A DNA stretch of 41,486 nucleotides from a virus. The position numbers and the translations under genes were made by a program. The DNA is taken from positions 1 to 41,486 of the IMG/VR virus record IMGVR_UViG_3300018917_000040; one strand, given 5' to 3'. Numbering within the stretch: position 1 is the stretch's first letter; the number at the start of each line of letters is the position of its first letter. A model generated the notes under the pieces. That model ran no database searches. It was not told the origin of the DNA and saw only the letters and a program-made list of their open reading frames with translations. This document shows, piece after piece, positions 24,501 through 41,486 of the stretch.

Positions 24501-24985
24501 GGAGCCCGCTCCAGGATCAACAACCGTCGATGCTTCGTCAGGCGAGGCCGCCCACGTTCGTCTCGGACGAGCCGCCAACCGGCCTGCTTGAAGCAGAAGC
24601 CGGGATTTCCGCTGCGGACCTTCCTGGGATCGACGTATGTGTAGTGCCGCTCCCCTGGCCAACGGGTGTCAGCAAGCGCGTCGGCTTCCCGGATCAGCCA
24701 ACTCGACAGACCGGCGCCTTCGTTCCTGAAAATGGCGCAATTAATGCCCCGCTGGTCATCGCCGCTGATGAATTTTCGCCAGACAAACAGTCCTCTGCGG
24801 CATGGCGTGGTCAGTACCATCTTAAAGCCTGGCCCGGCTATAAGCTGAGTCCCACGGGCGCGGCGCAGCACCAAGCTTCTGGCGGCCGAGTAATGCCGCT
24901 CGTACATTGAACAAGCATGCGCATCGCCGTCGCGGATCGGAATCCATATCGAGCTGTCGAAGAAGAGCTGGGCGGCGACTGTCAC
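24497..24985 (-). CDS. Conserved phage protein, possibly GNAT-like (162 aa)
   Basis: Has HYSAARSLVLRRARGTQLIA, GPGFKMVLTTPCRRGLFVWR then KFISGDDQRGINCAIFRNEG, and WPGERHYTYVDPRKVRSGNP then GFCFKQAGW. I recall this 'RHYSA...LFVWRKF...G-NCA-FRNE...R-YTYV-P-K--S-NPG-CFK-AGW' pattern from many phage and bacterial proteins of unknown role, with an acetyltransferase-like fold. GTG 24985 overlaps the primase stop, and its own stop overlaps the helicase ATG. Probably acts with replication genes. Confidence 0.75.
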   Translation of the reverse strand: MTVAAQLFFDSSIWIPIRDGDAHACSMYERHYSAARSLVLRRARGTQLIAGPGFKMVLTTPCRRGLFVWRKFISGDDQRGINCAIFRNEGAGLSSWLIREADALADTRWPGERHYTYVDPRKVRSGNPGFCFKQAGWRLVRDERGRPRLTKHRRLLILERAP

Positions 24986-26190
24986 GCCGCCTGCTCCGCT
25001 AGACTATCGAACAGCCATTCGCTCAGCGGCCGCGCGGCGGCGATCACCGCCTCGACCGCCTCGCGGCCCTGTGCACGCACGAAGCTATCGGGATCCTCGC
25101 CTTCCGGCAGCTCGGCCACGGCGAGGCTGCGCCCCGGCCCCACCATCGGCAGCGCGCGCTCCGCCGCCTTCAGCGCCGCCGCCCGCCCTGCCTTGTCGCC
25201 GTCGAGCAGCAGCACCGGGCAATGCGCCACCCGCCACGCCCGCTCCAGCTGCTTTTCCGTCAGCGCCGTCCCCATCGGCGCCACCGCCTCACCGATCCCG
25301 GCCAAGTCGAGCGCGATCGCGTCGAACTGCCCCTCCACGATCACCAGCCGCCGCGCCGCCCGCGCGGCCGGCGCCGCCCGGTGGAGGTTGAACAGCAGCT
25401 CCCCCTTGCGGAAATGCTCGCTTTCCGGGCTGTTGATATATTTGGGGCGCGGATTGGCCTGCGGCGAGGCGGCGGCAGGCTGGCTAGGTGGGTCCGCCGC
25501 TTCTCCGCCAACACTCAGGTCCCGCCCCGCAAACCCCGCCACACGTCCGCGCCCATCGTGAATCGGGATCATGAAGCGCCTGGCGAAGCGGTCCCGCCAC
25601 AGCCCGCTGCGCTCATCCCTGATCAGCAGCCCGGCGGCCTCCAGCTGCTCCGGCGGGACGGCTCCATGGTGGCCGGCGCCAACAGCCAACCCGCCGGCGA
25701 AAGCGCTCACCACACTCGCCTTGGGCGGCGCATAGCCGAGCCCGAACCGCTCGATCGCCGCTTCGCCCAGCCCGCGCTCCGCCAGCGCGGCCCTTGCCCT
25801 GGGCACGGCGCGCAGCTGGGCCGCATACCAGCGCGCCGCCCGCTCCAGCATCTCGGCCGCGCCCGCGCGCACCGCCTCGCGCCGCTGTGCCTCGGGCGAG
25901 GGCGCCGGCACCTCCATCCCCGCCGCATCGGCCAGCTGCCGCACCGCGTCGAGGAATCCCATCCCCTGTGCATCGGTCAGCCAGCGCAGCGCGTCGCCAT
26001 GCGCCTGGCAGCCGAAGCAGTGCCAGAAGCCCTTCTCGTCATTGACGGTGAAGCTCGGCGTCTTCTCGCTGTGGAACGGGCAGCACCCCTTATGCTCGCG
26101 CCCGGCTTTGACGAGCTTCACGCTCCGCCCGATCAGCCCCGAAAGGCTGGTCCGCGCCCGCAGCTCGTCGAGGAAGGAGGGAGGAATCAC
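24982..26190 (-). CDS. DnaG-type primase (402 aa)
   Basis: Makes RNA primers for phage replication. The N-terminal zinc finger is CCPFHSEKTPSFTVN...HCFGC (Cys37, His40, Cys58, Cys61). The TOPRIM domain has LVIVEGQFDAIAL (about 280) and LLLDGDKAGRAA (about 328). At 402 residues it is shorter than cellular DnaG because the helicase-binding end is missing. GTG 26190 is preceded by GGAG in the palindrome at 26195-26219. A repeat-derived peptide GLAVGA lies at about residues 165-170. Confidence 0.92.
   Translation of the reverse strand: MIPPSFLDELRARTSLSGLIGRSVKLVKAGREHKGCCPFHSEKTPSFTVNDEKGFWHCFGCQAHGDALRWLTDAQGMGFLDAVRQLADAAGMEVPAPSPEAQRREAVRAGAAEMLERAARWYAAQLRAVPRARAALAERGLGEAAIERFGLGYAPPKASVVSAFAGGLAVGAGHHGAVPPEQLEAAGLLIRDERSGLWRDRFARRFMIPIHDGRGRVAGFAGRDLSVGGEAADPPSQPAAASPQANPRPKYINSPESEHFRKGELLFNLHRAAPAARAARRLVIVEGQFDAIALDLAGIGEAVAPMGTALTEKQLERAWRVAHCPVLLLDGDKAGRAAALKAAERALPMVGPGRSLAVAELPEGEDPDSFVRAQGREAVEAVIAAARPLSEWLFDSLAEQAA
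25673..25698 (-). repeat. Hairpin repeat, copy 1 (GLAVGA), in the primase gene
   Basis: On the minus strand the arms GCCGGCG and CGCCGGC enclose the 13-base loop GGTTGGCTGTTGG. It is read in frame as GGLAVGAG. One of four copies with the same loop and co-varying arms. Confidence 0.75.
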
Positions 26191-27948: not shown

Positions 27949-29256
27949 TCACGCCGCCACCTCCACCTGCGCGAACATGCCGGCGGCGGCGCGCACCCGC
28001 CGCTCGGCGGTGGCGGCATATTCGGGCGACAGCTCGCACCCAATCGCGTGGAGCTGCTCGGCGTCGGCCGCGATCAGGGTCGAGCCCGAACCGCAGAACG
28101 GGTCCAGGACCGTTCCGCCCTTCGGGGTGATGAGCCGGCACAGCCAGCGCATCAGGGCGACCGGCTTGACCGTCGGATGCTTGTTGCCCTCCCCGCGCTC
28201 CTCGCTAGTGGCCTTGGCGCAGTAGAAGAAGCGAGCGGCGGAGCCGGAGTCGCCATGGAAGCGCGTAGCCACCCGCTCCCGCTCGCCATGGACGTTGGTG
28301 ACGGCGTTGCTCGGCTCGGTGCCACGCACCGGCGCGAACGCGCCCGCCTCGCGCGGAAACCCCGCCAGCACTTCCTCAGAACCATCGTGGATAATGTTGG
28401 CGGGCCAGCGGCCTAGATTGTTGGCGGGGCCGCTCCTCTCCGCCGGCTTGTGCGTCATCATGCTGCGATTGGGTGGGGTGTAGCCCTCTGCCGAAGGGGT
28501 GTAGGACGCATCCAATTCGCCTCGATCGATAGTCTCTCCCTCGGCCTCAATCCGGCACCCATCGATATTCAGCGCCCCCGTCCCGAACGCCTGCACATTG
28601 GCCGCCACCGTGCCGACCAGCGGCTTGCGGGCGAGGCAGATCGGCTCCCATGCGGGCTTCAGGGCGGTGCCCCAGCCTTGCCATTGGCGGGCTGCTTCGG
28701 TGGCCGGGGCGGTCTCGGTCGGCACGAACTCGCGCCCATTGTCCTTCACCCACCCGGCCTTGTTCTGGTCGGCGCCGGGGATCATGCGCTTCACCGGCTT
28801 GCCGGCGCGCAGAACCTCCCGCTCGGCTCCCGCCGCCTTGTCGATAGCCTTGGAAACGTCGAGCGACTTGGGAAAGCCGCTGCCGTAGCACCAGGCGAGC
28901 TGATCGCGTATCTCGAACCCGGCATCCTCGATCGCGCAGGCCATGCGGTGGTAGGTGCGGGTGCCGCCGAACGCGACGATGTGCCCACCCGGCTTGAGCA
29001 CGCGCAGCACTTCGGCCCATGTCTCCGGACGGAAGGCGACATCGCCGCCGTCCCATTGCTGACCCATGAAGCCGGCCGAGGCGCGGGCATAGGCTCCGGT
29101 CCTGCCGACCTTGGCGGGCGCGGCGTCGGGCGATCCGAACCGCTTGACGATGCTGGTGAGATGGTAGGGTGGATCGGTGACGCACGAATCCACGCTGCCG
29201 TCCGGCAGCTCGCGCATCCGCTCCAGGCAATCGCCGATCAGCAGGCGGACCGTCAT
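27949..29256 (-). CDS. DNA methyltransferase, DPPY type, class beta (435 aa)
   Basis: Adds a methyl group to adenine N6 or cytosine N4. DPPY (residues 28-31) comes first and the AdoMet motif DPFCGSGS (from residue 385) last, the order of class beta enzymes. KHPTVKPVALMRWLCRL precedes motif I as usual. The middle (about 140-340) is the target-recognition region. Full length, no nuclease nearby, so it probably protects phage DNA or alters expression. ATG 29256 overlaps the DUF5131 stop. Confidence 0.93.
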   Translation of the reverse strand: MTVRLLIGDCLERMRELPDGSVDSCVTDPPYHLTSIVKRFGSPDAAPAKVGRTGAYARASAGFMGQQWDGGDVAFRPETWAEVLRVLKPGGHIVAFGGTRTYHRMACAIEDAGFEIRDQLAWCYGSGFPKSLDVSKAIDKAAGAEREVLRAGKPVKRMIPGADQNKAGWVKDNGREFVPTETAPATEAARQWQGWGTALKPAWEPICLARKPLVGTVAANVQAFGTGALNIDGCRIEAEGETIDRGELDASYTPSAEGYTPPNRSMMTHKPAERSGPANNLGRWPANIIHDGSEEVLAGFPREAGAFAPVRGTEPSNAVTNVHGERERVATRFHGDSGSAARFFYCAKATSEERGEGNKHPTVKPVALMRWLCRLITPKGGTVLDPFCGSGSTLIAADAEQLHAIGCELSPEYAATAERRVRAAAGMFAQVEVAA

Positions 29257-30347
29257 GTGGTCTCACGCGCCCCTCGACGCGGCTCGGGATGAGCGGGAGC
29301 GGAGGGCGCGGAGGGGAAAGCGCTGTGCTCCACCCCGCCCTTCGACACCCCGCTGCGCGGCTGCTCAGGATGATCGGGCATTGCGTCGTGCACGACGCCA
29401 TCCAGCAGGCGACCGGCGGCTTTCTTGCCCCATCGCTCCAGCGGAAGATCAACCGTGCGCGGCTCGGCTTTGTGTCCGACAATCCCTTTGTCGACCGGGC
29501 CCCACTCCCCCCATTGCTTGAAAAAGAATGGCACCCCCACCGCGGCGCATTGGTCGCGCAGGCTCCGCGCCCAGTCCGGGTGCATCGGCCGCGCGCCCGG
29601 GCCGCTCTCGCCGCCGGCAATGACCCAGTCGAGGTGATCAAGATAGGTGATCCACCCGATGCGTTCGAACTCAGGAAGGCACTGCCCCAGGTCCACCGGC
29701 CCCAGCAGCGGCTCGCAGGAAAGGAAGCGGACCGCCGCCGGCGTGGCCAGCAGATGCGGGATCCGCTCGTCGGCGCGCCCCTGATCCTCGACCGACACGC
29801 CGAGCCAGACGTTGGGGAGCGGCCAGTCATCAAGCACCCGCTCGCGCGCATCTCGGCACATCATCAGGGTAGCGCCCGCCTTGCGTGCGGCGTTCGCTAC
29901 GAAATCAGCGCAATTGTCATCATGGGCGGCGTCATAGCGCTCGAAATACCGCCGCATCCGCGCCGCGCGCTTGGTCAGCACCTGGAATTCGTGCTGCGGT
30001 GCCAGCGCCATCACTGCGAACACGCGGTCGATCCATTCGTCGGGCACGCTCTCGTGGAACAGATCCGACATCGAATTGACGAAGATGCGGCGCGGCCGCC
30101 GCCACTTGAGCGGGCGCGTCAGCAGATGCTCGGCCAGCGCCACCTTGCCGGTCCAGCGCCCGCCCTTCGACGTGCGCACCGCCAGTCCGTGATAGGCCTG
30201 GCCGGGATCGGAGAAGCGCGCGGCGATCTTCTCCGCATAGCAGCCGCCCTGATTGCCCGGCCCGCCGCACCCCGGCGACACCCGCGTGCAGCCGCGCAAA
30301 GGATTCCAGGTGTCGTCGGTCCACTCGATCGGTGAGTTCTCAGCCAC
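29253..30347 (-). CDS. DUF5131 / phage Gp37-Gp68 family protein (364 aa)
   Basis: Starts MAENSPIEWTDDTWNPLRGC with further Cys at 27 and 36 (CYAEK), then SMSDLFHESVPDEWIDRVFA, WLGVSVEDQGRADERI and DWVIAGGESGPGARPMHPDW. These identify the family (IEWTD-TWNP, VS-GC--CYAE, NSMSDLFH, VW-G-SVE, GGESG). The N-terminal cysteines and overall layout recall radical-SAM-like proteins, but the activity is not established. The last ~40 residues (DHPEQPRSGVSKGGVEH...) derive from a dispersed repeat at 29337-29376. Confidence 0.92.
   Translation of the reverse strand: MAENSPIEWTDDTWNPLRGCTRVSPGCGGPGNQGGCYAEKIAARFSDPGQAYHGLAVRTSKGGRWTGKVALAEHLLTRPLKWRRPRRIFVNSMSDLFHESVPDEWIDRVFAVMALAPQHEFQVLTKRAARMRRYFERYDAAHDDNCADFVANAARKAGATLMMCRDARERVLDDWPLPNVWLGVSVEDQGRADERIPHLLATPAAVRFLSCEPLLGPVDLGQCLPEFERIGWITYLDHLDWVIAGGESGPGARPMHPDWARSLRDQCAAVGVPFFFKQWGEWGPVDKGIVGHKAEPRTVDLPLERWGKKAAGRLLDGVVHDAMPDHPEQPRSGVSKGGVEHSAFPSAPSAPAHPEPRRGARETT
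29337..29376. repeat. Dispersed repeat in the C-terminus of the DUF5131 gene
   Basis: CGCCCTTCGACACCCCGC then GGCTGCTCAGGATGATCGGG, the reverse form of the CCTGAG/TCGAAGGG element. It supplies the last non-conserved part of the protein and may have replaced the original C-terminus. Confidence 0.6.
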
Positions 30348-30657: not shown

Positions 30658-30964
30658 GCTCTTCCTCCTGAACGTGCAGCCCCGCGCGGATGTCGCCGGC
30701 GAAGGCGCGCAGGCGGTCCTTGAGCAGGCCGCCTTCCTCGGCGCCGACGCGGCCCCTGGCGATCAGCGCGTCGATCTGCCCGCACTGGCGCGCCGCATAG
30801 GCCGCCACCGCCGCCCGCTCGGCGCGGACGATCTCCCGCTCATCCCTGTCCTGAGCGCCGTCGAAGGGCCGAGCAGCGTCGAGCGCAGTCGAAGAGCTTG
30901 TCCTGAGCTCGGTCGAAGGACGCCCGTCGAGGGACCGCTCCACCTGGGCCGCACCATCAGACAT
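30650..30964 (-). CDS. Hypothetical early protein carrying a repeat-derived insert (104 aa)
   Basis: Real-looking helical part: REIVRAERAAVAAYAARQCG then RGRVGAEEGGLLKDRLRAFA. Residues about 11-40 (SLDGRPSTELRTSSSTALDA and following) are encoded by a dispersed repeat at 30846-30933, so the original protein was probably about 75 residues. The reading frame is intact. It overlaps the next genes at both ends by eight bases. Function unknown. Confidence 0.6.
   Translation of the reverse strand: MSDGAAQVERSLDGRPSTELRTSSSTALDAARPFDGAQDRDEREIVRAERAAVAAYAARQCGQIDALIARGRVGAEEGGLLKDRLRAFAGDIRAGLHVQEEERG
30846..30933. repeat. Dispersed repeat cluster inside an early gene
   Basis: Tandem variants of the CCTGAGC...GTCGAAGGG element: CTGTCCTGAGCGCCGTCGAA, then GTCGAGCGCAGTCGAAGAGC, then CCTGAGCTCGGTCGAAGGAC and CCGTCGAGGGACC. 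The total keeps the frame open. Confidence 0.7.
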
Positions 30965-33817: not shown

Positions 33818-34222
33818 ATGCCCGCCATGGGCATCACCCGGCGGAATTACATAGCGCAGTGGCGCAAGTTCAAGCAGCTTACTGCGGTGGAGCTGGCGGA
33901 CCGGCTCGCCGAATATGCCGAGATGCACGGTGTGAATATTCCAACCACCAAGGCCAGCATAAGCCGCATCGAGCATGGCGGGCAAAACTTCAGCGTCGAT
34001 CTCCTGCACGCTATCGCTGCAGTGCTCGCGACCGGCGAGGATGATCCCAAACCTGGGGATCTGCTGGAGCGCAATCCCTTCAAGGGCGTGCTCCAAGCTG
34101 AATCGTTCATCCAAGCCTTGAACGATCGCCAGCAGAAAAAGGCGCTCGGCGTGCTCCACGCGATGTTTGGCGAGGATCAAGAGGGTTATCGCGCCGACAC
34201 GAGCGATGGTTCCACGGAGTGA
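33818..34222 (+). CDS. CI-like repressor with XRE-type helix-turn-helix (134 aa)
   Basis: Begins MPAMGITRRNYIAQWRKFKQ then LTAVELADRLAEYAEMHGVN, with TKASISRIEHGGQNFSVDLL as the recognition region: a classical XRE domain (about 5-75). A helical tail follows (AESFIQALNDRQQKKALGVL). There is no LexA-type self-cleavage domain, so induction would need another signal than RecA cleavage. Start could be ATG 33818 or 33827. Divergent from the cro-like gene. Confidence 0.82.
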   Translation: MPAMGITRRNYIAQWRKFKQLTAVELADRLAEYAEMHGVNIPTTKASISRIEHGGQNFSVDLLHAIAAVLATGEDDPKPGDLLERNPFKGVLQAESFIQALNDRQQKKALGVLHAMFGEDQEGYRADTSDGSTE

Positions 34223-34232
34223 AACTTATCGG

Positions 34233-34261
34233 TTGACGCGCAGTTCCACCCCGCGTAACTA
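34233..34261 (+). promoter_or_regulatory. Rightward early promoter
   Basis: TTGACG (34233-34238), 17 bases, TAACTA (34256-34261): near-consensus sigma-70. It would drive the operon from 34287 to the integrase. Confidence 0.7.
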
Positions 34262-34283
34262 GGCCTCCGCAACACCGGAGGCC
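34262..34283 (+). promoter_or_regulatory. Inverted repeat at the expected transcription start
   Basis: Perfect arms GGCCTCCG and CGGAGGCC around CAACAC. The GGAGG in the second arm is the Shine-Dalgarno of the 34287 gene. From the promoter above, transcription would begin inside the first arm, so this may act as a DNA operator; longer transcripts would form an SD-hiding hairpin. Confidence 0.55.
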
Positions 34284-34286
34284 CAA

Positions 34287-34748
34287 ATGCTTTCTTCCCC
34301 CACCCCCTTTCCCCAGGTCGGCAGCTACGCGCTGCTGCCGGTCGACCCCGTCAGCGGGTTGGCGGTTGGCGCTGACCACAAAGCTGCCACCACCCATCTC
34401 GCGCGCATCATCGCCCTGGCTCCCGTCGGCGGGTTGGCTGTTGGCGCCGACCGACAGGCAACCGTGAGCCTGCCACTGGTCCCCGGCAGCAGCGGCACGC
34501 GCAGCGTCGCCCTCGGCGAGCTGATCGACCCCACCCCGCTCACCGCCGAGGAGAGGCGCGAGCTGGACGAGCTGTGCACCCGCTGCCTGGCCGCCGCCTC
34601 GGGCGGGCTCGATCCCATGCGCAACCTGTCCAAACGCCAGCGCGCGCGCTTCGACGAGCTGTCCAGCCGCGCCGCCCGCGCCGCCACGCTCGAGCGCCTG
34701 CTCGCCGAGCTGAAGCAATATCAGCTCCGGCAGGGGATGGCGGCGTGA
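34287..34748 (+). CDS. Hypothetical early protein with two repeat inserts (153 aa)
   Basis: First gene of the rightward operon. The C-terminal half is a helical, charged domain (LTAEERRELDELCTRCLAAA; FDELSSRAARAATLERLLAE). The N-terminal half contains two copies of the hairpin repeat, read as VSGLAVGADHK and VGGLAVGADRQ, 72 bases apart. Without them the protein would be compact. Function unknown. Confidence 0.7.
   Translation: MLSSPTPFPQVGSYALLPVDPVSGLAVGADHKAATTHLARIIALAPVGGLAVGADRQATVSLPLVPGSSGTRSVALGELIDPTPLTAEERRELDELCTRCLAAASGGLDPMRNLSKRQRARFDELSSRAARAATLERLLAELKQYQLRQGMAA
34350..34376 (+). repeat. Hairpin repeat, copy 2
   Basis: Arms GTCAGCG and CGCTGAC around GGTTGGCGGTTGG, read in frame as SGLAVGA. 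Confidence 0.75.
34422..34448 (+). repeat. Hairpin repeat, copy 3
   Basis: Arms GTCGGCG and CGCCGAC around GGTTGGCTGTTGG, read in frame as GGLAVGA. Differs from copy 2 by paired changes in the arms that keep the stem. Confidence 0.75.
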
Positions 34749-35191
34749 TGGGCACGTCTGCCGGCGCGCCCGCCGCCGCGGGCTCTGCTCCGTCAGCCGG
34801 GGATGAGCTCCGGCAATTGGCAAGCATGTGCACGACAGCGGGCGAATTGCCCCTCCACCTGCTGGACGCGCATCTCAACTATATCGACCGCAGGATACGC
34901 GATCTGAAACTGATCCCGGAGACGAGGGCTGAGCGCCGATACACGCGCAACCTCGACTTTGCGAAACGGCTGGTTCCCGCGAACTGCTCCTGGGCCGTGG
35001 GGAATTGCGGCGAGGATGACGGCCCCTGGGCCTGCGTCACCGCGAACGGCGAAGATCAGCCGGAGCGGGCGGACTGCCCGGACTATGAGGCTTCGGGGGT
35101 GACGCCCAGCGTCGCGCTGGCAGCGGCGGCGCTGCTCGCACGGGCCGCCGGCGAGCCCATCGGCGGCAGCGAAGAAGGAGGTGCAGCGTGA
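34748..35191 (+). CDS. Hypothetical early protein (147 aa)
   Basis: Starts MGTSAGAPAAAGSAPSAGDE, then LPLHLLDAHLNYIDRRIRDL, and a Cys-containing middle (CSWAVGNCGEDDGPWACVTA; ADCPDYEAS). ATG 34748 overlaps the upstream stop (TGATG). The GEDDGPWACVTANGE region looks like a compact conserved part, but I cannot name the family. Confidence 0.65.
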   Translation: MGTSAGAPAAAGSAPSAGDELRQLASMCTTAGELPLHLLDAHLNYIDRRIRDLKLIPETRAERRYTRNLDFAKRLVPANCSWAVGNCGEDDGPWACVTANGEDQPERADCPDYEASGVTPSVALAAAALLARAAGEPIGGSEEGGAA

Positions 35192-35565
35192 ACGTGCCCC
35201 CCTTCCGCTCCACCCCGGTGGACAGCCGCCGGCTGACCACGCCCGCGCACCTCATCGGCCGACAGTCGCCCGCCGCGCGGCAGCGTGTGCATGGGGAGCT
35301 GCTCCCCATGGCCTGTCCCGAGCCGCGGCGAAGGGGCCCGATCCAGCCCATGCAGGACGAGCGGGGCGAGAGGGGCGCGTGGATCGCCGCATGGACGCTG
35401 GCCGCTATCCTGCTCGCCCTGGTGATCCTCCCCGGCCTCGCCTGGCTGGCCGACGGCGCCCCTCGAACCGCTCATCCCCGTCCTGAGCCTAGTCGAAGGG
35501 CCGAGCCTGTCGAGGGACGCGCCCACCCCGCCGACGAGGCAAGCTGGCCCAGGGCCGCGCCATGA
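35188..35565 (+). CDS. Small single-span membrane protein (125 aa)
   Basis: One clear membrane helix (AWIAAWTLAAILLALVILPG, about residues 64-88). The C-terminal tail PRPEPSRRAEPVEGRAHPAD is encoded by a dispersed repeat at 35478-35520. GTG 35188 overlaps the upstream stop. The N-terminal half is basic and probably cytoplasmic. Role unknown. Confidence 0.6.
   Translation: MNVPPFRSTPVDSRRLTTPAHLIGRQSPAARQRVHGELLPMACPEPRRRGPIQPMQDERGERGAWIAAWTLAAILLALVILPGLAWLADGAPRTAHPRPEPSRRAEPVEGRAHPADEASWPRAAP
35478..35520. repeat. Dispersed repeat in the membrane-protein gene
   Basis: CCCGTCCTGAGCCTAGTCGA then AGGGCCGAGCCTGTCGAGGG, the CCTGAGC/TCGAAGGG element. A degenerate relative may occur at 35317-35338 (GTCCCGAGCCGCGGCGAAGG). 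Confidence 0.6.
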
Positions 35566-37049
35566 CCGGCCCCGACCCCTCGATCGACATGGTGCGGCGG
35601 CTAGCCGGCCGCGGCGGGGCCGCGACCGGGGATGAGCTAAAGGCCGTGCTGGAGCGGGTGATCGCCTGCACCGAAAGCACAAGGCCTGCCGCAGAGCGAG
35701 CTAACGAATGGGATATGGCAATCCGCGCTGTCCGCGAAGCCCACGCCCGCCTCTCCGACCGCGGCCAGGCGGAACCACCAGCCTATTCCGACAGCGAGCG
35801 CACCACGACCGCTGCTGCGATCATGGACGTGTGGATGGGCGGCAATCAGGCATGGCGCACCGATATGGACAAAAGCCTGATCTTGGAGAGCGCGGATTGG
35901 GAACAGGCGCTCAAACTTGCTGACGCCGCCCTCGCCGCCAGAAGCGTGCCGGTTGGTGGTGAAAGTGTGGCGGCCCGCCTGCTCGCTGAATATGCGCAGG
36001 CGAACGGCTACGACCGATTTACTTGGAAAGGCCGCGTGCAGACCCAGGGCGAGGAAGCAGAGCGCTTCGCGGTTGATGTGAGCCTTTGGCCCGCCTCTCG
36101 TTCAACACCTGCCACCCCCAATCCTCCCCCCGTCGTAAGGCAGGGCAGCACCACCCTAACGCCAGTCACAGAACCGGGCTGGCCCGATGTTCCTCAAGCC
36201 ACCGGTGACGCCGAGGAACATGACGACGCCTACGGGGGCGCAAGGCAGGGCATTGAGGGTGAACCAACACCCATGCAGAAGCTCATGGCCCAACGAAGCG
36301 GCCACGAGGTCGGCTGCAACTGTTCCTATTGCAGCGATCCAGACGGCAGTAAAGCCGAGGCAGCAGTCGCAAGGCAGGGCATTGGCGAGCCCGCGCTGAG
36401 GGAGGCGCAGGGGCAAATAGACGAACCTTTGCGGAACGTCGTCCGAAACATAGTTCGGAAAGCCCTATCCACCACCCCCACGCCGGTCGTGCCGGAGGGA
36501 GTGAACAGCGATGCGGTGAGGCGAGCGGTTAAGGATGCGCTGGCCCAATATCACGCCGAGTGTGCCGAGTTCGTCAAACATCCCGGCCCGGCAGCAGACG
36601 CGCTCATTACCAAGCTCCGCTCCCTCCTCGCCACCGATAAGCCCGCAATTGGGCAGGAAGGGGGTGGGCGGTTCCAAGCGCGCGTCGGTGAGTGGATGCT
36701 GGCGTGCTTTGGCCCGGAGATCAGCGCCGACGGCATGGAGCGCAACCACCGCTTCCTGGAGGAGTCGCTGGAGCTAGTCCAGTCGCTCGGCTGCACCGCC
36801 AGCGAAGCCCACCAGCTGGTCGATTACGTGTTCGGCCGACACGTGGGCGATCCTCAGCAGGAAGTCGGCGGGGTGCGCGTCACCCTCGCCGCGCTCTGCA
36901 ATGCCCACAGCATCGGCGAGGATGAAGCTGCCGAGCGCGAGCTAGCGCGCATCTGGACGAAGGTGGAGCAGATCAGGGCTAAGCAGGCTGCGAAGCCCAA
37001 GCACTCGCCGCTGCCAGCCACCCCCACGCAGGAGGGCCCCGATGCCTGA
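35562..37049 (+). CDS. Multi-part protein with a MazG-like C-terminus (495 aa)
   Basis: The C-terminal part (about 370-480) has RVGEWMLACFGPEISADGME then RNHRFLEESLELVQSLGCTA, and DYVFGRHVGDPQQEVGGVRV, like all-alpha NTP pyrophosphatases (MazG-type) seen in many phages, which clear unusual nucleotides. The N-terminal 360 residues look patched together, with the phrase ARQGI(E)GEP twice and VRQGS once near 36137, 36240 and 36370, and a Cys pair (GCNCSYC). Probably a fusion of small early proteins. Confidence 0.75.
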   Translation: MTGPDPSIDMVRRLAGRGGAATGDELKAVLERVIACTESTRPAAERANEWDMAIRAVREAHARLSDRGQAEPPAYSDSERTTTAAAIMDVWMGGNQAWRTDMDKSLILESADWEQALKLADAALAARSVPVGGESVAARLLAEYAQANGYDRFTWKGRVQTQGEEAERFAVDVSLWPASRSTPATPNPPPVVRQGSTTLTPVTEPGWPDVPQATGDAEEHDDAYGGARQGIEGEPTPMQKLMAQRSGHEVGCNCSYCSDPDGSKAEAAVARQGIGEPALREAQGQIDEPLRNVVRNIVRKALSTTPTPVVPEGVNSDAVRRAVKDALAQYHAECAEFVKHPGPAADALITKLRSLLATDKPAIGQEGGGRFQARVGEWMLACFGPEISADGMERNHRFLEESLELVQSLGCTASEAHQLVDYVFGRHVGDPQQEVGGVRVTLAALCNAHSIGEDEAAERELARIWTKVEQIRAKQAAKPKHSPLPATPTQEGPDA

Positions 37050-37446
37050 CGCCGCGGCACCCCTCCTCTTCGAATGGCAGGCCGAGGCCGCGCGGCGGGA
37101 GCTGGCGGCGTGGGAGCGGAACGGCCCCCTCGCCGTCGCCGACCGCCGCATGGACCAGGCCGATCTCGACTTCAACCTCGCCGCCTGGCGCGCCATCGCG
37201 CAGCTGATGGCGACCGGCAAATGCGAGGAAACCACGCTCACCTGGGCCGACCTCCACCGCGCCACCGCCGCCTGCCTCAAGCGCCGCCGGGAAGCGATCG
37301 ACGCCAACCAGGACCCCGACCGCCACCGGGCGCTGGTCGAGCGCCACCAGCTCGTCCTGTCCATCCACGCCCGCATCGCCCGCAACCGCGACGCGGCATA
37401 CCGCGCCCAGCCGCACGACCGTGAAGCGGAGGCGCAGGCCGCGTGA
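37042..37446 (+). CDS. Hypothetical helical protein (134 aa)
   Basis: All-helical and charged: FEWQAEAARRELAAWERNGP, RRMDQADLDFNLAAWRAIAQ, TWADLHRATAACLKRRREAI. Overlaps the end of the preceding gene and ends two bases before the methyltransferase start. Family not recognised. Confidence 0.65.
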   Translation: MPDAAAPLLFEWQAEAARRELAAWERNGPLAVADRRMDQADLDFNLAAWRAIAQLMATGKCEETTLTWADLHRATAACLKRRREAIDANQDPDRHRALVERHQLVLSIHARIARNRDAAYRAQPHDREAEAQAA

Positions 37447-37447
37447 C

Positions 37448-38597
37448 ATGGCTCTACGTCCCGCCGACCCTCCCTGGAACACCATCTCCCTGTGCGCCGG
37501 CGGCGGCGGGCTCGACCTCGGCATCCAGCTCGCCGTGCCCGGAGCGCACAGCGTCTGTTACGTGGAGAGGGAAGCCTATGCCGCCGCATGCCTGGTCGCG
37601 CGCATGGAAGCGGGCGACCTGGCTCCGGCGCCTGTCTGGTCTGACCTCGCCACCTTCGACGCTCGACCATGGCGCGGCCGCGTTCATTGCATCGCTTCCG
37701 GAGATCCCTGCCAGGACAACAAGCACCGCCGGAAAGCAGCTCGGCGCCGGCGGCACCCGCTTCCTCATCCCCGAAGTGCTCCGGGTGGTCGATCAGTGCC
37801 GGCCTCTCCGTCTCTTCCGCGAAAACGTGCCGGGGAACGCGGCCGGACAGCTCGCCGCCCTCGTCCCGCCACTGGAGCGAATGGGCTACCGCGTTGAATG
37901 CGGACTTTTCAGCTCGGCCGAAACCGGAGCTTCCCACGGACGCAAGCGCATGTTCGTCATGGCCGACCTGGCCGACGCCGAGGGCGAACGACCCGGAGAA
38001 GCGTGGGAACTTCGACACCAGCAACCCGAGGAATGGCCTGCCGGGTGCGGCTGCCTTGTGGGGCACGCCGACTGTGAACCGGAGGGCGCAGGAGCCGCGG
38101 GATGTGCACCACGGGGTACAGCTGGCGAACCAGGTGGATCAGTGGCGGACGCCGGTGGCGCGAGACGCGGAGCGGGGCGCGTCCAACAGTCACGATGCGA
38201 AGGCGGGCAAGCACTCGCTGCTGTCGGAAGTGGCGAACTGGCCAACGCCGGCGGCGCGGGATCACAAGGGCGCGAACTCGATCGAGCATGTGACGACGAA
38301 CGGCACGGGCCGCATGCACATGGACCAGTTGCCGAATTTCGTCCTCTATGCCTCCCACTCAGCGCACCCGGACCTTCCGACTCCCGCTGGCCCGCCATCC
38401 TCGCCGCCGCGCCGCAGCTTGAACCCGCTGTTTGTCGAATGGCTCATGCGCTGGCCCATCGGGTGGAGCGACTTGGACTGCTCGGCAACGGGGTCGACCC
38501 GGTGGCTGCAGCTTATGCGTGGCTTTGTCTGGACGCTCGCCACCGCGCCGCGCGAGCGGCACGGCCAGCTGGGCCTGGGGCTGTGAAGGCGGCATGA
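37448..38597 (+). pseudogene. C5-cytosine DNA methyltransferase split by a frame change near 37721
   Basis: Would methylate cytosine C5. The first frame gives motif I (ISLCAGGGGLDLGIQLAVPG) and motif IV with the catalytic Cys (ASGDPCQ, Cys88), then runs out of sense after about 37720. One base later the next frame continues at once: STAGKQLGAGGTRFLIPEVL, then RENVPG (motif VI), GASHGRKRMFVMAD (motif VIII), and motif X (LGLLGNGVDPVAAAYAW). That frame ends on an ATGA overlap with the next gene, as elsewhere in this phage. So one extra base (or programmed +1 shift) near 37721 splits the enzyme. A third frame also looks coding; see findings. Confidence 0.8.
37960..38586 (+). other. Overlapping frame with WPTP-x-ARD repeats, protein-like
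   Basis: Reads WPTPRANDPEKRGNFDTSNP, then WGTPTVNRRAQEPRDVHHGV, WRTPVARDAERGASNSHDAK, WPTPAARDHKGANSIEHVTT and NPLFVEWLMRWPIGWSDLDC. I recognise this style from the C-terminal parts of other phage C5-methyltransferases. It covers the same DNA as the second frame of the split gene, where the same repeats read LADAEGE, VGHADCE, VADAGGA and LANAGGA. Confidence 0.5.
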
Positions 38598-38995
38598 ACG
38601 GGCAGGCCGTCACTGACGCCCCGCCGCCAAACGCCGCTGGCGGGGCCGCCCCGGCTTCGGCACCAAGGCTGCCGCGCGGCTGTCCGGAGTGCCTGGCGCG
38701 CGTCTCCTCGCCCCAGCCCGCCGCCTTGTTCTGCTCGCCGGAGCACAAGCGCGCCTGGCACATCCGCGCGCGCAGCCGCGGGGGCGTGCTCCTCGCCCTG
38801 GCGATGGCCGCGCGCCAGACGCGGGGCGGCACCCGCGGCCCGGAACACCAGCGCGCGATCGGCCGCCGCGCCCGCGCCGACGCCGACCAGCTCATGCAGC
38901 GCTGGAAGGAAGAGGACCGCGCCGCCGGCCGCATGTCCGCGATCGACTACATCACGCTGCGCTACCGCTACGGCCTGGTGGACGTGGTCCGGTGA
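38594..38995 (+). CDS. Small Cys-containing phage protein (133 aa)
   Basis: Has RGCPECLARVSSPQPAALFC then SPEHKRAWHIRARSRGGVLL, a likely zinc-binding motif (CPEC...CSPEHK). The end is helical (ADADQLMQRWKEEDRAAGRM then SAIDYITLRYRYG). ATG 38594 overlaps the methyltransferase frame; the stop overlaps the next GTG. Function unknown. Confidence 0.7.
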   Translation: MNGQAVTDAPPPNAAGGAAPASAPRLPRGCPECLARVSSPQPAALFCSPEHKRAWHIRARSRGGVLLALAMAARQTRGGTRGPEHQRAIGRRARADADQLMQRWKEEDRAAGRMSAIDYITLRYRYGLVDVVR

Positions 38996-39177
38996 ACGCC
39001 CAGGCCGACCCCGACCTGATCGAGCTCGCAAGAGCGCTTGCCCGCGCGAGCGTTCGGAGAGACATTGCCCGCGCCCGCACCTCCCGGCCCGGCAGTGGGC
39101 TGGCGGTTGGCGCTGCCGGGCCGGAGCCGCAAGGACGCCATGCGCACGATCATCTACGCCCGCTTCAGCTCGGATAA
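38992..39177 (+). CDS. Small phage protein with repeat insert (61 aa)
   Basis: GTG start overlaps the upstream stop (GTGA). Reads MNAQADPDLIELARALARAS then VRRDIARARTSRPGSGLAVG, with the hairpin-repeat peptide GLAVGA, and ends RHAHDHLRPLQLG. 'DP-LI-LARALAR--V-RDIA' resembles small conserved proteins often placed just before phage recombinases. It overlaps the integrase start by 38 bases. Confidence 0.65.
   Translation: MNAQADPDLIELARALARASVRRDIARARTSRPGSGLAVGAAGPEPQGRHAHDHLRPLQLG
39088..39124 (+). repeat. Hairpin repeat, copy 4, just before the integrase start
   Basis: Arms GGCCCGGCAG and CTGCCGGGCC (ten pairs) close over TG/CG and the loop GGCTGGCGGTTGG. It lies 15 bases before the integrase ATG and is read as SGLAVGA in the small gene. 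Confidence 0.75.
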
Positions 39178-40720
39178 CCAGAACCCGCGCTCGATCGCCG
39201 ACCAGGTTGCCCTGTGCCGCCAGCGCGCCGCGGCCGAGGGGTGGAGCGTGGTCGCCGTGTTCGAGGACGCGGCGATCAGCGGCGCCGCCGGCATCGGCGA
39301 GGAGCAGCGGCCCGGCCTCCACGCCATGCTGGCGCTGGTCGAGGCGGGCGGCGTCGACCAGGTGCTCGCCGAATCGACCGACCGCATCGCCCGCCACGTC
39401 GCCGACGCCCACCTGGTGCGCGAGCGCATCGAATATGCCGGCGCCCGCCTCTTCACCCTGTTCGACGGGGCGGTCACGCCGATCATCGGCCTGGTCAAGG
39501 GCTTCATGGACGCGCAGTTCCGCACCGATCTCGGAAAGCGCGTGCGCCGCGGCCACCAGGGGGCGGTGAGCGAGGGCCGCTCCCCCTCGGGCGTGGCGTA
39601 CGGCTACCGCAAGGTGCTGCGCTTCGGCGCCAAGGGCGAGGCGGTGCGCGGCCTGCGCGAGGTCGATCCCGACCAGGCGGAGATCGTGCTGCGCATCTAC
39701 CGCGAATATATCGCCGGCAAGAGCTCGCGCCAGATCGCCCACGCGCTCAACCGCGACGGCGTGCCCGCCCCGCGCGGGCGGCTGTGGGCGCCGACCACCA
39801 TCTCCGGGCATCGCGCCGCCGGCTTCTCGATCCTCGCCAACCCCATCTACATCGGCCGCATCGTCTACGGCCGCACGCGATCGGCGGTGAACCCGGTCAC
39901 CCGCCGCCGCACCAGCCGGCCCGGCGAGGGGCCGCTGGTCGAGCAGGAGGCGCCGCACCTGCGCATCGTCGACGACGCGACCTGGGCGACGGCGCAGGCA
40001 ATGCTGGACGCCAATGCCGGCGGCCGTCCCGAACGGCGGCGGCGGCCGAAGCACCTGCTTTCCGGGCTCGGCGAATGCGGCCTGTGCGGCGCGGCCTGGG
40101 TCAAATTCTCGATGCTCAACTGGAAATGCTCGACCCACCAGAATGGCGGGGCCTGCGCCAACAATCGCACCATCTCGACGCGGCAATATGAGCGCCGCGT
40201 GCTGGCCGAACTCAAGGCCGGCATGCTCGCGCCGGAGGTGGTGAGCGCCTATGTGCGCGAATATCACCGCGAATATGCCCGCGCGGCGGCGCAGCTCGGC
40301 CGCGACCGCGACCGCATCGAGCGGCAGCTCGGGGAGGCGCGGCGCAAGGTCAAGCGGCTGCTCGACGCCTTCGCCGCCGGCGCCGACGAGTTCGCCGAGA
40401 TCCGCGACATGCTCGCGGCGGCGCGCGACGAGCGGGAAAGGCTGGAGCGGGAACTGGCCAGCATGGACGCGCTCCCCGACGTGCTCGCGCTCCACCCCCA
40501 GCTCGAGGCGGAATATCGCCGCCAGGTCGAGGCGCTCGAGGAAGCCCTCGCCCGCCCCGAAGCCGAGCTCGACGCCGCCCCGCGGCTCCGCGCCATGATC
40601 GCCCGCATCATCCTCACCCCCAGCCCGGAAGGCCGCGGCGCCCATATCCAGGTGGTGCGCCGAATGGACCAGGTCCTCGCCCTGGCCCAACCCAAAGCCG
40701 CCGCGCGCAGCATACGCTGA
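39140..40720 (+). CDS. Large serine recombinase (integrase), 526 aa
   Basis: Integrates and, with a partner, excises the prophage. The catalytic domain starts MRTIIYARFSSDNQNPRSIA (Y-x-R-x-S motif, Ser10 the likely nucleophile), with AESTDRIARHVADAHLVRER and MDAQFRTDLGKRVRRG. The recombinase domain follows (GVAYGYRK...EIVLRIYREYIAGKSSRQIA). A zinc ribbon follows (CGLCGAAW...KCSTHQNGGACANN, about 313-345), then a coiled coil (RDRIERQLGEARRKVKRLLD). AAGGA precedes ATG 39140. Last gene of the rightward operon, next to the attachment site. Confidence 0.95.
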   Translation: MRTIIYARFSSDNQNPRSIADQVALCRQRAAAEGWSVVAVFEDAAISGAAGIGEEQRPGLHAMLALVEAGGVDQVLAESTDRIARHVADAHLVRERIEYAGARLFTLFDGAVTPIIGLVKGFMDAQFRTDLGKRVRRGHQGAVSEGRSPSGVAYGYRKVLRFGAKGEAVRGLREVDPDQAEIVLRIYREYIAGKSSRQIAHALNRDGVPAPRGRLWAPTTISGHRAAGFSILANPIYIGRIVYGRTRSAVNPVTRRRTSRPGEGPLVEQEAPHLRIVDDATWATAQAMLDANAGGRPERRRRPKHLLSGLGECGLCGAAWVKFSMLNWKCSTHQNGGACANNRTISTRQYERRVLAELKAGMLAPEVVSAYVREYHREYARAAAQLGRDRDRIERQLGEARRKVKRLLDAFAAGADEFAEIRDMLAAARDERERLERELASMDALPDVLALHPQLEAEYRRQVEALEEALARPEAELDAAPRLRAMIARIILTPSPEGRGAHIQVVRRMDQVLALAQPKAAARSIR

Positions 40721-40745: not shown

Positions 40746-41486
40746 GGCAAGGAGCTGGTGGTGCGCGAGGCACTCGGCGCCGGGCTCCCCTCGGCCGGCG
40801 TCGGCTGTGCGATTTCTCGCGAGGCGATAGCGCAGCTCGCCGCGCAGGATGCGGACGGCAATCCGTTCGACGCCGCCAGCCTGACCGAGGATTATGAGAT
40901 CGGCCTGAAACTGCACGCGCTCGGCCGGCGCGGCGCGTTTGTGCGCCTCCCCGCCGGCGTCGGGGGCGGCGTCATCGCCACGCGTGGCCATTTCCCCTCC
41001 GACTGGCGGGAAGCGGTGGCGCAGAAGTCGAGGTGGATGGCGGGCATATCCTTGACCGGCTGGGACCGGCTCGGCTGGGGTGGCGGTCCGGCGGAGTGCT
41101 GGATGCGGCTGCGCGACCGCCAGCCGCCGCTCGCCGCTCTGCTCCTGTGCGCCGGTTACGCCGCACTGCTTGCCGCGGCGATCCTGGCCAGCGCGGCGCA
41201 GGCCGCCGGGCGGCCGATCCTGCTGGTGACGCCGACGCTGGCGCTAATGATGCAGGCCGCGACATTCCTGCTCGCCTGGCGGCTGGCCATGCGCTTCGCC
41301 TTCGCGGCCCGCAGCTATGGCTGGCGCGAGGGGCTGCGCGCTCTGCCTCGGGTCCTCACCAGCAACGCGCTGGCGATGCTGGCGGCGCGCGCGGCGATCG
41401 GGCGCTACCGCCGCGCCCGCCGCACCGGCGAGGCAGTGTGGGGCAAGACCCGGCACATCTTCCCGGTCCAAGTGCCGGCCGAGTGA
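40737..41486 (+). pseudogene. 3' part of a host glycosyltransferase (N4 adsorption protein B-like), interrupted by the prophage
   Basis: Reads HGKELVVREALGAGLPSAGV then GCAISREAIA, FDAASLTEDYEIGLKLHALG (TEDYE motif) and AVAQKSRWMAGISLTGWDRL (Q-x-x-RW motif), typical of family-2 glycosyltransferases. Two or three membrane helices follow (PPLAALLLCAGYAALLAAAI; LLVTPTLALMMQAATFLLAW). This is the layout of the NfrB-type inner-membrane enzymes needed for phage N4 adsorption. The N-terminal part is missing on this side of the integrase; the start codon lies beyond the other end of the prophage. Confidence 0.8.

Follow-up and report, generated by a model that had tools for sequence, protein, structure and literature searches.

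A four-copy palindromic repeat inserted in frame into coding sequences of an apparent temperate phage genome

In-frame palindromic insertions are already known from a few bacterial chromosomes. The palindromic elements of Rickettsia, with a length of about 150 bp (PMC10969869), lie in frame within unrelated genes of the chromosome, encode a conserved peptide and are apparently tolerated (PMC10969869; PMC6649704), and their repeats are reported to lose identity over time (PMC6649704). REPs of two super-families, GTAG and CGTC, are palindromes of 20-40 bp; some of them, the intragenic REPs, lie within ORFs, frequently in genes for replication and repair (PMC3733652, Di Nocera et al. 2013). Families of the CGTC type occur typically in Alphaproteobacteria and have no known transposase; they are defined by an unpaired terminal CGTC (or TGTC/CCTC), an 8-9 bp stem starting with AT, a loop of 4-5 nt and a CCA tail (PMC3733652). 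In nematomorph mitochondria, long palindromes in conserved protein regions keep their arms paired though both arms code, for which template-switching repeat conversion was proposed (PMC6649704). Here, a short palindrome that recurs at four coding sites of a viral record is compared with these systems.

The window analyzed, i.e., the whole stretch of 41,486 nt of IMG/VR virus record IMGVR_UViG_3300018917_000040, has a high G+C content. It encodes a major head protein, a head protease, a portal protein and a terminase, in addition to a D5-type primase-helicase, DnaG, a CII-like regulator and a large serine recombinase; judged by these genes, the record looks like a temperate phage genome. A sphingomonad host is conjectural. 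Two copies of the repeat (c1 and c2) lie in a gene at 34287-34748 (+) for a 153-aa protein of the PFPQVGSY... family, to which no function was assigned. The third copy (c3) lies in a 61-aa ORF at 38992-39177 (+), which overlaps the start of the serine recombinase gene (39140-40720, +; Resolvase N-terminal domain and Recombinase domain). The fourth copy (c4) lies in the gene at 24982-26190 (-) for a DnaG-type primase with zinc ribbon, DNAG_N and Toprim domains. Directly after the recombinase gene, a glycosyltransferase family 2 gene (40758-41486, +) runs off the contig end and may represent host DNA from the integration site. The window further encodes two DNA methyltransferases, which belong to different classes (N6/N4 type and C5-cytosine type), at 27949-29256 (-) and 37443-38597 (+), and a DUF5131 gene is found at 29253-30347 (-).

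The hairpin core common to the four copies spans 27 nt, i.e., a 13-nt, near-constant loop between two arms that form 7 bp. Copy c1 (34350-34376, +) reads GTCAGCG-GGTTGGCGGTTGG-CGCTGAC, with arms at 34350-34356 and 34370-34376 and the loop at 34357-34369. Copy c2, which the initial annotation had placed at 34422-34448, is shifted by 3 nt to 34425-34451 (+) and reads GTCGGCG-GGTTGGCTGTTGG-CGCCGAC (loop 34432-34444). In c3 (39084-39124, +), the core (39091-39117; loop 39098-39110) is part of an extended stem of 14 bp (CCGGCCCGGCAGTG/CGCTGCCGGGCCGG), while c4 (25672-25698, -) reads GCCGGCG-GGTTGGCTGTTGG-CGCCGGC (loop 25679-25691). The presence of the four copies, as initially annotated, was borne out by the 16-mer pattern GGYTGGCKGTTGGCGC, which matched four times in the whole window and never in 100 dinucleotide shuffles. 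A covariance model run on the whole window with filters off gave 57-70 bits for the four copies, on which it had been trained, while no other segment exceeded 18 bits (E = 0.02); thus, it revealed no fifth copy in the window. In a scan for hairpin families of a general kind, GC-rich noise swamped loops of 8-12 nt, and for loops of 13 and 15 nt the c1-c4 family was the only one among the matches listed. Outside the 27-nt core, the copies resembled each other only marginally, with p = 0.06 for the 6 nt upstream and p = 0.045 for the 12 nt downstream. Copies c1 and c2 lie 75 nt apart in one gene and may be non-independent insertions.

The arms differ by paired changes, as had been noticed initially: all 28 cells (four copies with seven pairs each) hold standard pairs, a share that drops to 14-68% when the partner column is slid by 1-3 positions. 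Two of the seven pairs vary on both sides, one with three types (TA, CG, GC) and one with two (AT, GC); four are invariant, and a G-T wobble occurs in one copy. The sole difference between c2 and c4 is a compensated pair (T-A to C-G), and c1 and c2 are distinguished by one loop base and by an exchanged pair (A-T to G-C). All arm changes retain pairing. The covariation score, which rests on the small sample of four copies and two covarying pairs, was matched by 5 of 500 column shuffles. The pairing statistics provide moderate support for a structured stem. Pairing is maintained across changes; the initial conclusion that covariation means selection of the stem was overstated, since template-switch correction yields the same pattern in an unselected stem.

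Comparison with relatives revealed what the genes look like where the repeat is missing. In the nearest relative of the DnaG primase (L141; 64% identity), a net gap of 13 residues lies opposite SAFAGGLAVGAGHHG; the next primase (L142; 62%) and 17 further, more distant primases also lack the c4 segment. The c4 insert is thus estimated at 39 nt (13 codons; 25666-25704, -), reading AFAGGLAVGAGHH, with edges uncertain by several nt. For the 153-aa ORF, two relatives (L127 and L128) matched over 113-114 aa and lack both the c1 and the c2 insert, while a profile search with this ORF gave no match in 289 genomes. At the c1 site, 21 residues separate SYA(L/V) from L(A/V)RI as compared to eight in the two relatives, i.e., 13 extra, and removal of 13 codons from the 153-aa ORF restores their spacing of eight residues between SYAL and LARI. 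The c1 insert is likewise estimated at 39 nt (13 codons; 34344-34382, +; DPVSGLAVGADHK), again with edges uncertain by several nt. At the c2 site, the relatives are shorter by 9 and 5 residues and not by exactly 13, so that the insert placed at 34419-34457 (+; APVGGLAVGADRQ) corresponds to a gap of 9 or 5 codons. Six relatives (L170-L175), the recombinases of which are 61-63% identical, have the same small ORF as that carrying c3, without the hairpin; two of them, with 45-46% identity in this ORF, are 9 or 5 residues shorter. Hence, a footprint of 6 + 27 + 6 = 39 nt is exact at c1 and c4 and inexact (5-9 codons) at c2 and c3. Since the relatives show a gap at every site, the copies are insertions, always in whole codons.

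As initially annotated, all four copies are read in the GLAVGA frame, and this frame was confirmed to lie on the sense strand, where they encode xxGLAVGAx. All six frames are open in c2-c4 and four in c1; the same sense frame in all four copies would be expected by chance in about 1 of 200 cases, if equal odds are assumed for each open frame. The two loop positions that vary do so synonymously (TTG/CTG and GCG/GCT), and the middle of the peptide is conserved as DNA or as peptide. The arm pair with three types alters the residues on both sides (V..D in c1 and c2; A..G and G..A among the remaining copies). Since these changes are paired and yet change amino acids, retention of the palindrome has taken precedence over the peptide ends. 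An AlphaFold2 (AF2) model of the primase (mean pLDDT of 85.5) gave values below 50 for residues 167-175 between folded flanks, and the c4 insert is thus predicted to be an unfolded loop within an otherwise confident fold. The AF2 model of the 153-aa ORF was built on three sequences and is uninformative for its inserted half.

Four copies at non-homologous sites of three unrelated genes favor an insertion element. We consider it probable (roughly 0.6) that the repeat is a non-autonomous palindromic insertion element of about 39 bp, which spread within the phage lineage and persists because its copies are in frame and benign. The element would have been copied to at least four sites of the temperate phage genome, where it settled in variable or loop regions of the three genes. 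The copies that survived would be those keeping the frame and encoding a bland peptide, x-x-G-L-A-V-G-A-x, tolerable to DnaG and the two small proteins, so that the requirement for open genes acted as a filter on the spread. The arms could drift and yet stay complementary if the folded single strand were the mobilized form; alternatively, replication may re-copy one arm from the other by template switching. Repetition, arm pairing, absence from the relatives' sites and in-frame insertion in a single coding orientation support the insertion of a structured element in coding DNA, as had been proposed initially. Its mobility as a DNA element is suggested by insertion patterns in one genome, hence the limited confidence given above; an exact element length of 39 bp and tolerance by the host proteins, rather than a benefit to them, are likewise our inferences. 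No Y1/HUH transposase was found in the whole window, and thus the linked transposase for which the initial annotation proposed to look is missing there.

Copies outside this record were sought in several collections. In 2.9 million viral contigs of IMG/VR, none was found, in one scan among the matches listed; the matches listed in the first scan were consistent with chance. When 84,980 species genomes were searched for exact 23-mers, four single, isolated matches in unrelated taxa emerged; a one-mismatch scan of 398 Pseudomonadota genomes and 289 genomes from a single class gave scattered matches only, and BLAST revealed no copy in plasmids and phages. These three genome scans speak against a common host chromosomal repeat. 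When the covariance model was applied to 50 whole records of relatives, no copy was detected; the best match (L279) reached 23 bits, and this as well as a match in L198 were GC-rich look-alikes missing the exact loop. A degenerate GLAVGA pattern occurred in 25 contigs, all of them single coding look-alikes with different loop DNA. One coding stretch elsewhere, N-I-G-G-L-A-V-G-A-D-V (ATCGGCGGGCTGGCTGTTGGTGCTGAT; L183:1495-1525), forms a near-palindrome with the same loop. It resembles what we take to be an MCE/MlaD coding motif, and a captured host gene fragment of this type is a possible seed of the hairpin. The hairpin family appears to be rare in sampled genomes and may not be unique to this record. 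The initial annotation had made the idea of a mobile element depend on further copies elsewhere, and every collection searched, from which the records closest to the window may be missing, lacked them. This argues against a mobile element, since such an element should have a source, without refuting the idea.

A second short repeat, with the core CCTGAGCnnnGTCGAAGG, is present in three copies (30836-30874, 30902-30919 and 35468-35506, +). Two of these are 90% identical over 39 nt, and one is part of a 125-aa ORF, in its C-terminal tail. Among the genomes sampled, some contain several copies of the core (up to 17, in G562), and no paper containing a sequence of this type was found.

A phage protein, such as a repressor, a replication or a recombination protein, might recognize the copies as sites scattered over the genome, the hairpin forming part of each site; four copies in this phage genome and none detected elsewhere would agree with this. 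The stoperator sites of mycobacteriophage L5, which point in one direction, offer a parallel. The near-constant 13-nt core and the same orientation to transcription in every gene agree with such sites as well. However, dispersed operators normally arise in place and mostly between genes, whereas c1-c4 arrived as multi-codon insertions missing from the relatives of each gene, and their arms vary. We therefore regard recognition sites as unlikely.

A similarly low probability is assigned to plain duplications of a GC-rich coding stretch, in which the palindrome would stem from GC-rich codons and the arms would be held by template-switch correction, with neither an element nor a function involved. 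GCC/GGC and GTC/GAC codons are mutually reverse-complementary, and AGGLAVGAG-like peptides of unrelated single-copy genes (L291, L294, L304 and L311) also pair at seven of seven positions. Moreover, template switching turns imperfect palindromes into perfect ones (PMC6649704), and the outer 7 bp of the c3 stem, found in c3 alone, fit arm extension by this process. Against this explanation, the near-identical loop DNA of four copies in three genes requires copying to distant sites, and the single-copy look-alikes differ in their loop DNA while c1-c4 share theirs. That hairpins specific to the phage spread without a transposase, by strand switching during phage replication, with each successful copy encoding the same harmless peptide, is a speculative proposal to which we give little weight.

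Effects at the RNA level, i.e., an attenuator, a stability hairpin or a G-quadruplex in the mRNA, are very improbable. The constant orientation to transcription would suit a regulator, as would the strong hairpin of c3 right ahead of the ribosome-binding site of the recombinase gene. Copy c3, alone among the four, folds better than its own shuffles (z of about -3.6). In contrast, c1, c2 and c4 do not surpass their shuffles as RNA (z of -0.2 to -0.4) and barely do so as DNA, and c1 favors a different RNA fold. In addition, no Rfam family matched in 34000-39500, which covers c1-c3, and no U-run follows the stems of c1-c4. The two-tetrad G-quadruplex considered initially does not hold for the family, since four GG runs are not present in every copy: the loop GG-TT-GG-C-GG-TT-GG occurs in c1, and in c3 with CT replacing the first TT, and in no other copy, while c2 and c4 (loop GGTTGGCTGTTGG) carry GGCTGTTGG and are one GG run short of four. 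As an observation apart, only a few nt separate the end of the c3 stem (39084-39140 region) from the likely ribosome-binding site of the serine recombinase gene, and the stem could influence translation of this gene. Selection at the protein level, with GLAVGA as a beneficial peptide motif acquired by convergence or exchange, is just as remote: the core peptide is constant and its loop substitutions are silent, but the shared DNA exceeds what the peptide needs, the arm changes are paired at the cost of amino acid changes, and the motif falls into the predicted unfolded loop of DnaG.

If the insertion element exists as proposed, a phage with its own small family of such elements, a replication gene included, would show that they colonize compact viral genomes, and if carried by phages, they could travel between hosts with them. 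The small system also permits a direct test of whether covarying arms come from a selected mobile hairpin or from copying errors at the replication fork.

Compared by description, the phage repeat shares with the Rickettsia palindromic elements the in-frame position at several unrelated coding sites, the conserved peptide, the apparent tolerance by the proteins concerned and the absence from orthologues. It differs from them in length, with a net 39 nt at two exact sites as compared to about 150 bp, in its location as four copies in a phage rather than in a bacterial chromosome, and in its arms, which stay paired. Since the sequence comes from a virus record of high G+C content, an origin from Rickettsia is unlikely. 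With intragenic REPs, it has in common the size range of the palindrome and, with DnaG primase, a site in a replication gene. However, CGTC is found in c1 and c2 only, where its GTC is paired, and the 7-bp stem without AT, the 13-nt loop, the CCA tail lacking in some copies and the low copy number separate it from CGTC-tagged REPs. As to GTAG-tagged REPs, no GTAG lies beside any stem, and no PF01797 (RAYT, Y1 transposase) was detected in the whole window, although the host could carry a RAYT. The nematomorph palindromes likewise keep paired coding arms; the phage repeat is a single short sequence inserted several times, whereas those palindromes are long and situated where the protein is conserved. 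The double-hairpin elements of fungal mitochondria are mobile, and their hairpins combine a conserved loop with a compensated stem; being mitochondrial and double, they differ from the phage repeat and serve as a lead only. By its sequence features, the phage repeat thus appears to be of the in-frame coding-palindrome kind, outside both the published definition of CGTC and GTAG REPs and the length of the Rickettsia palindromic elements.
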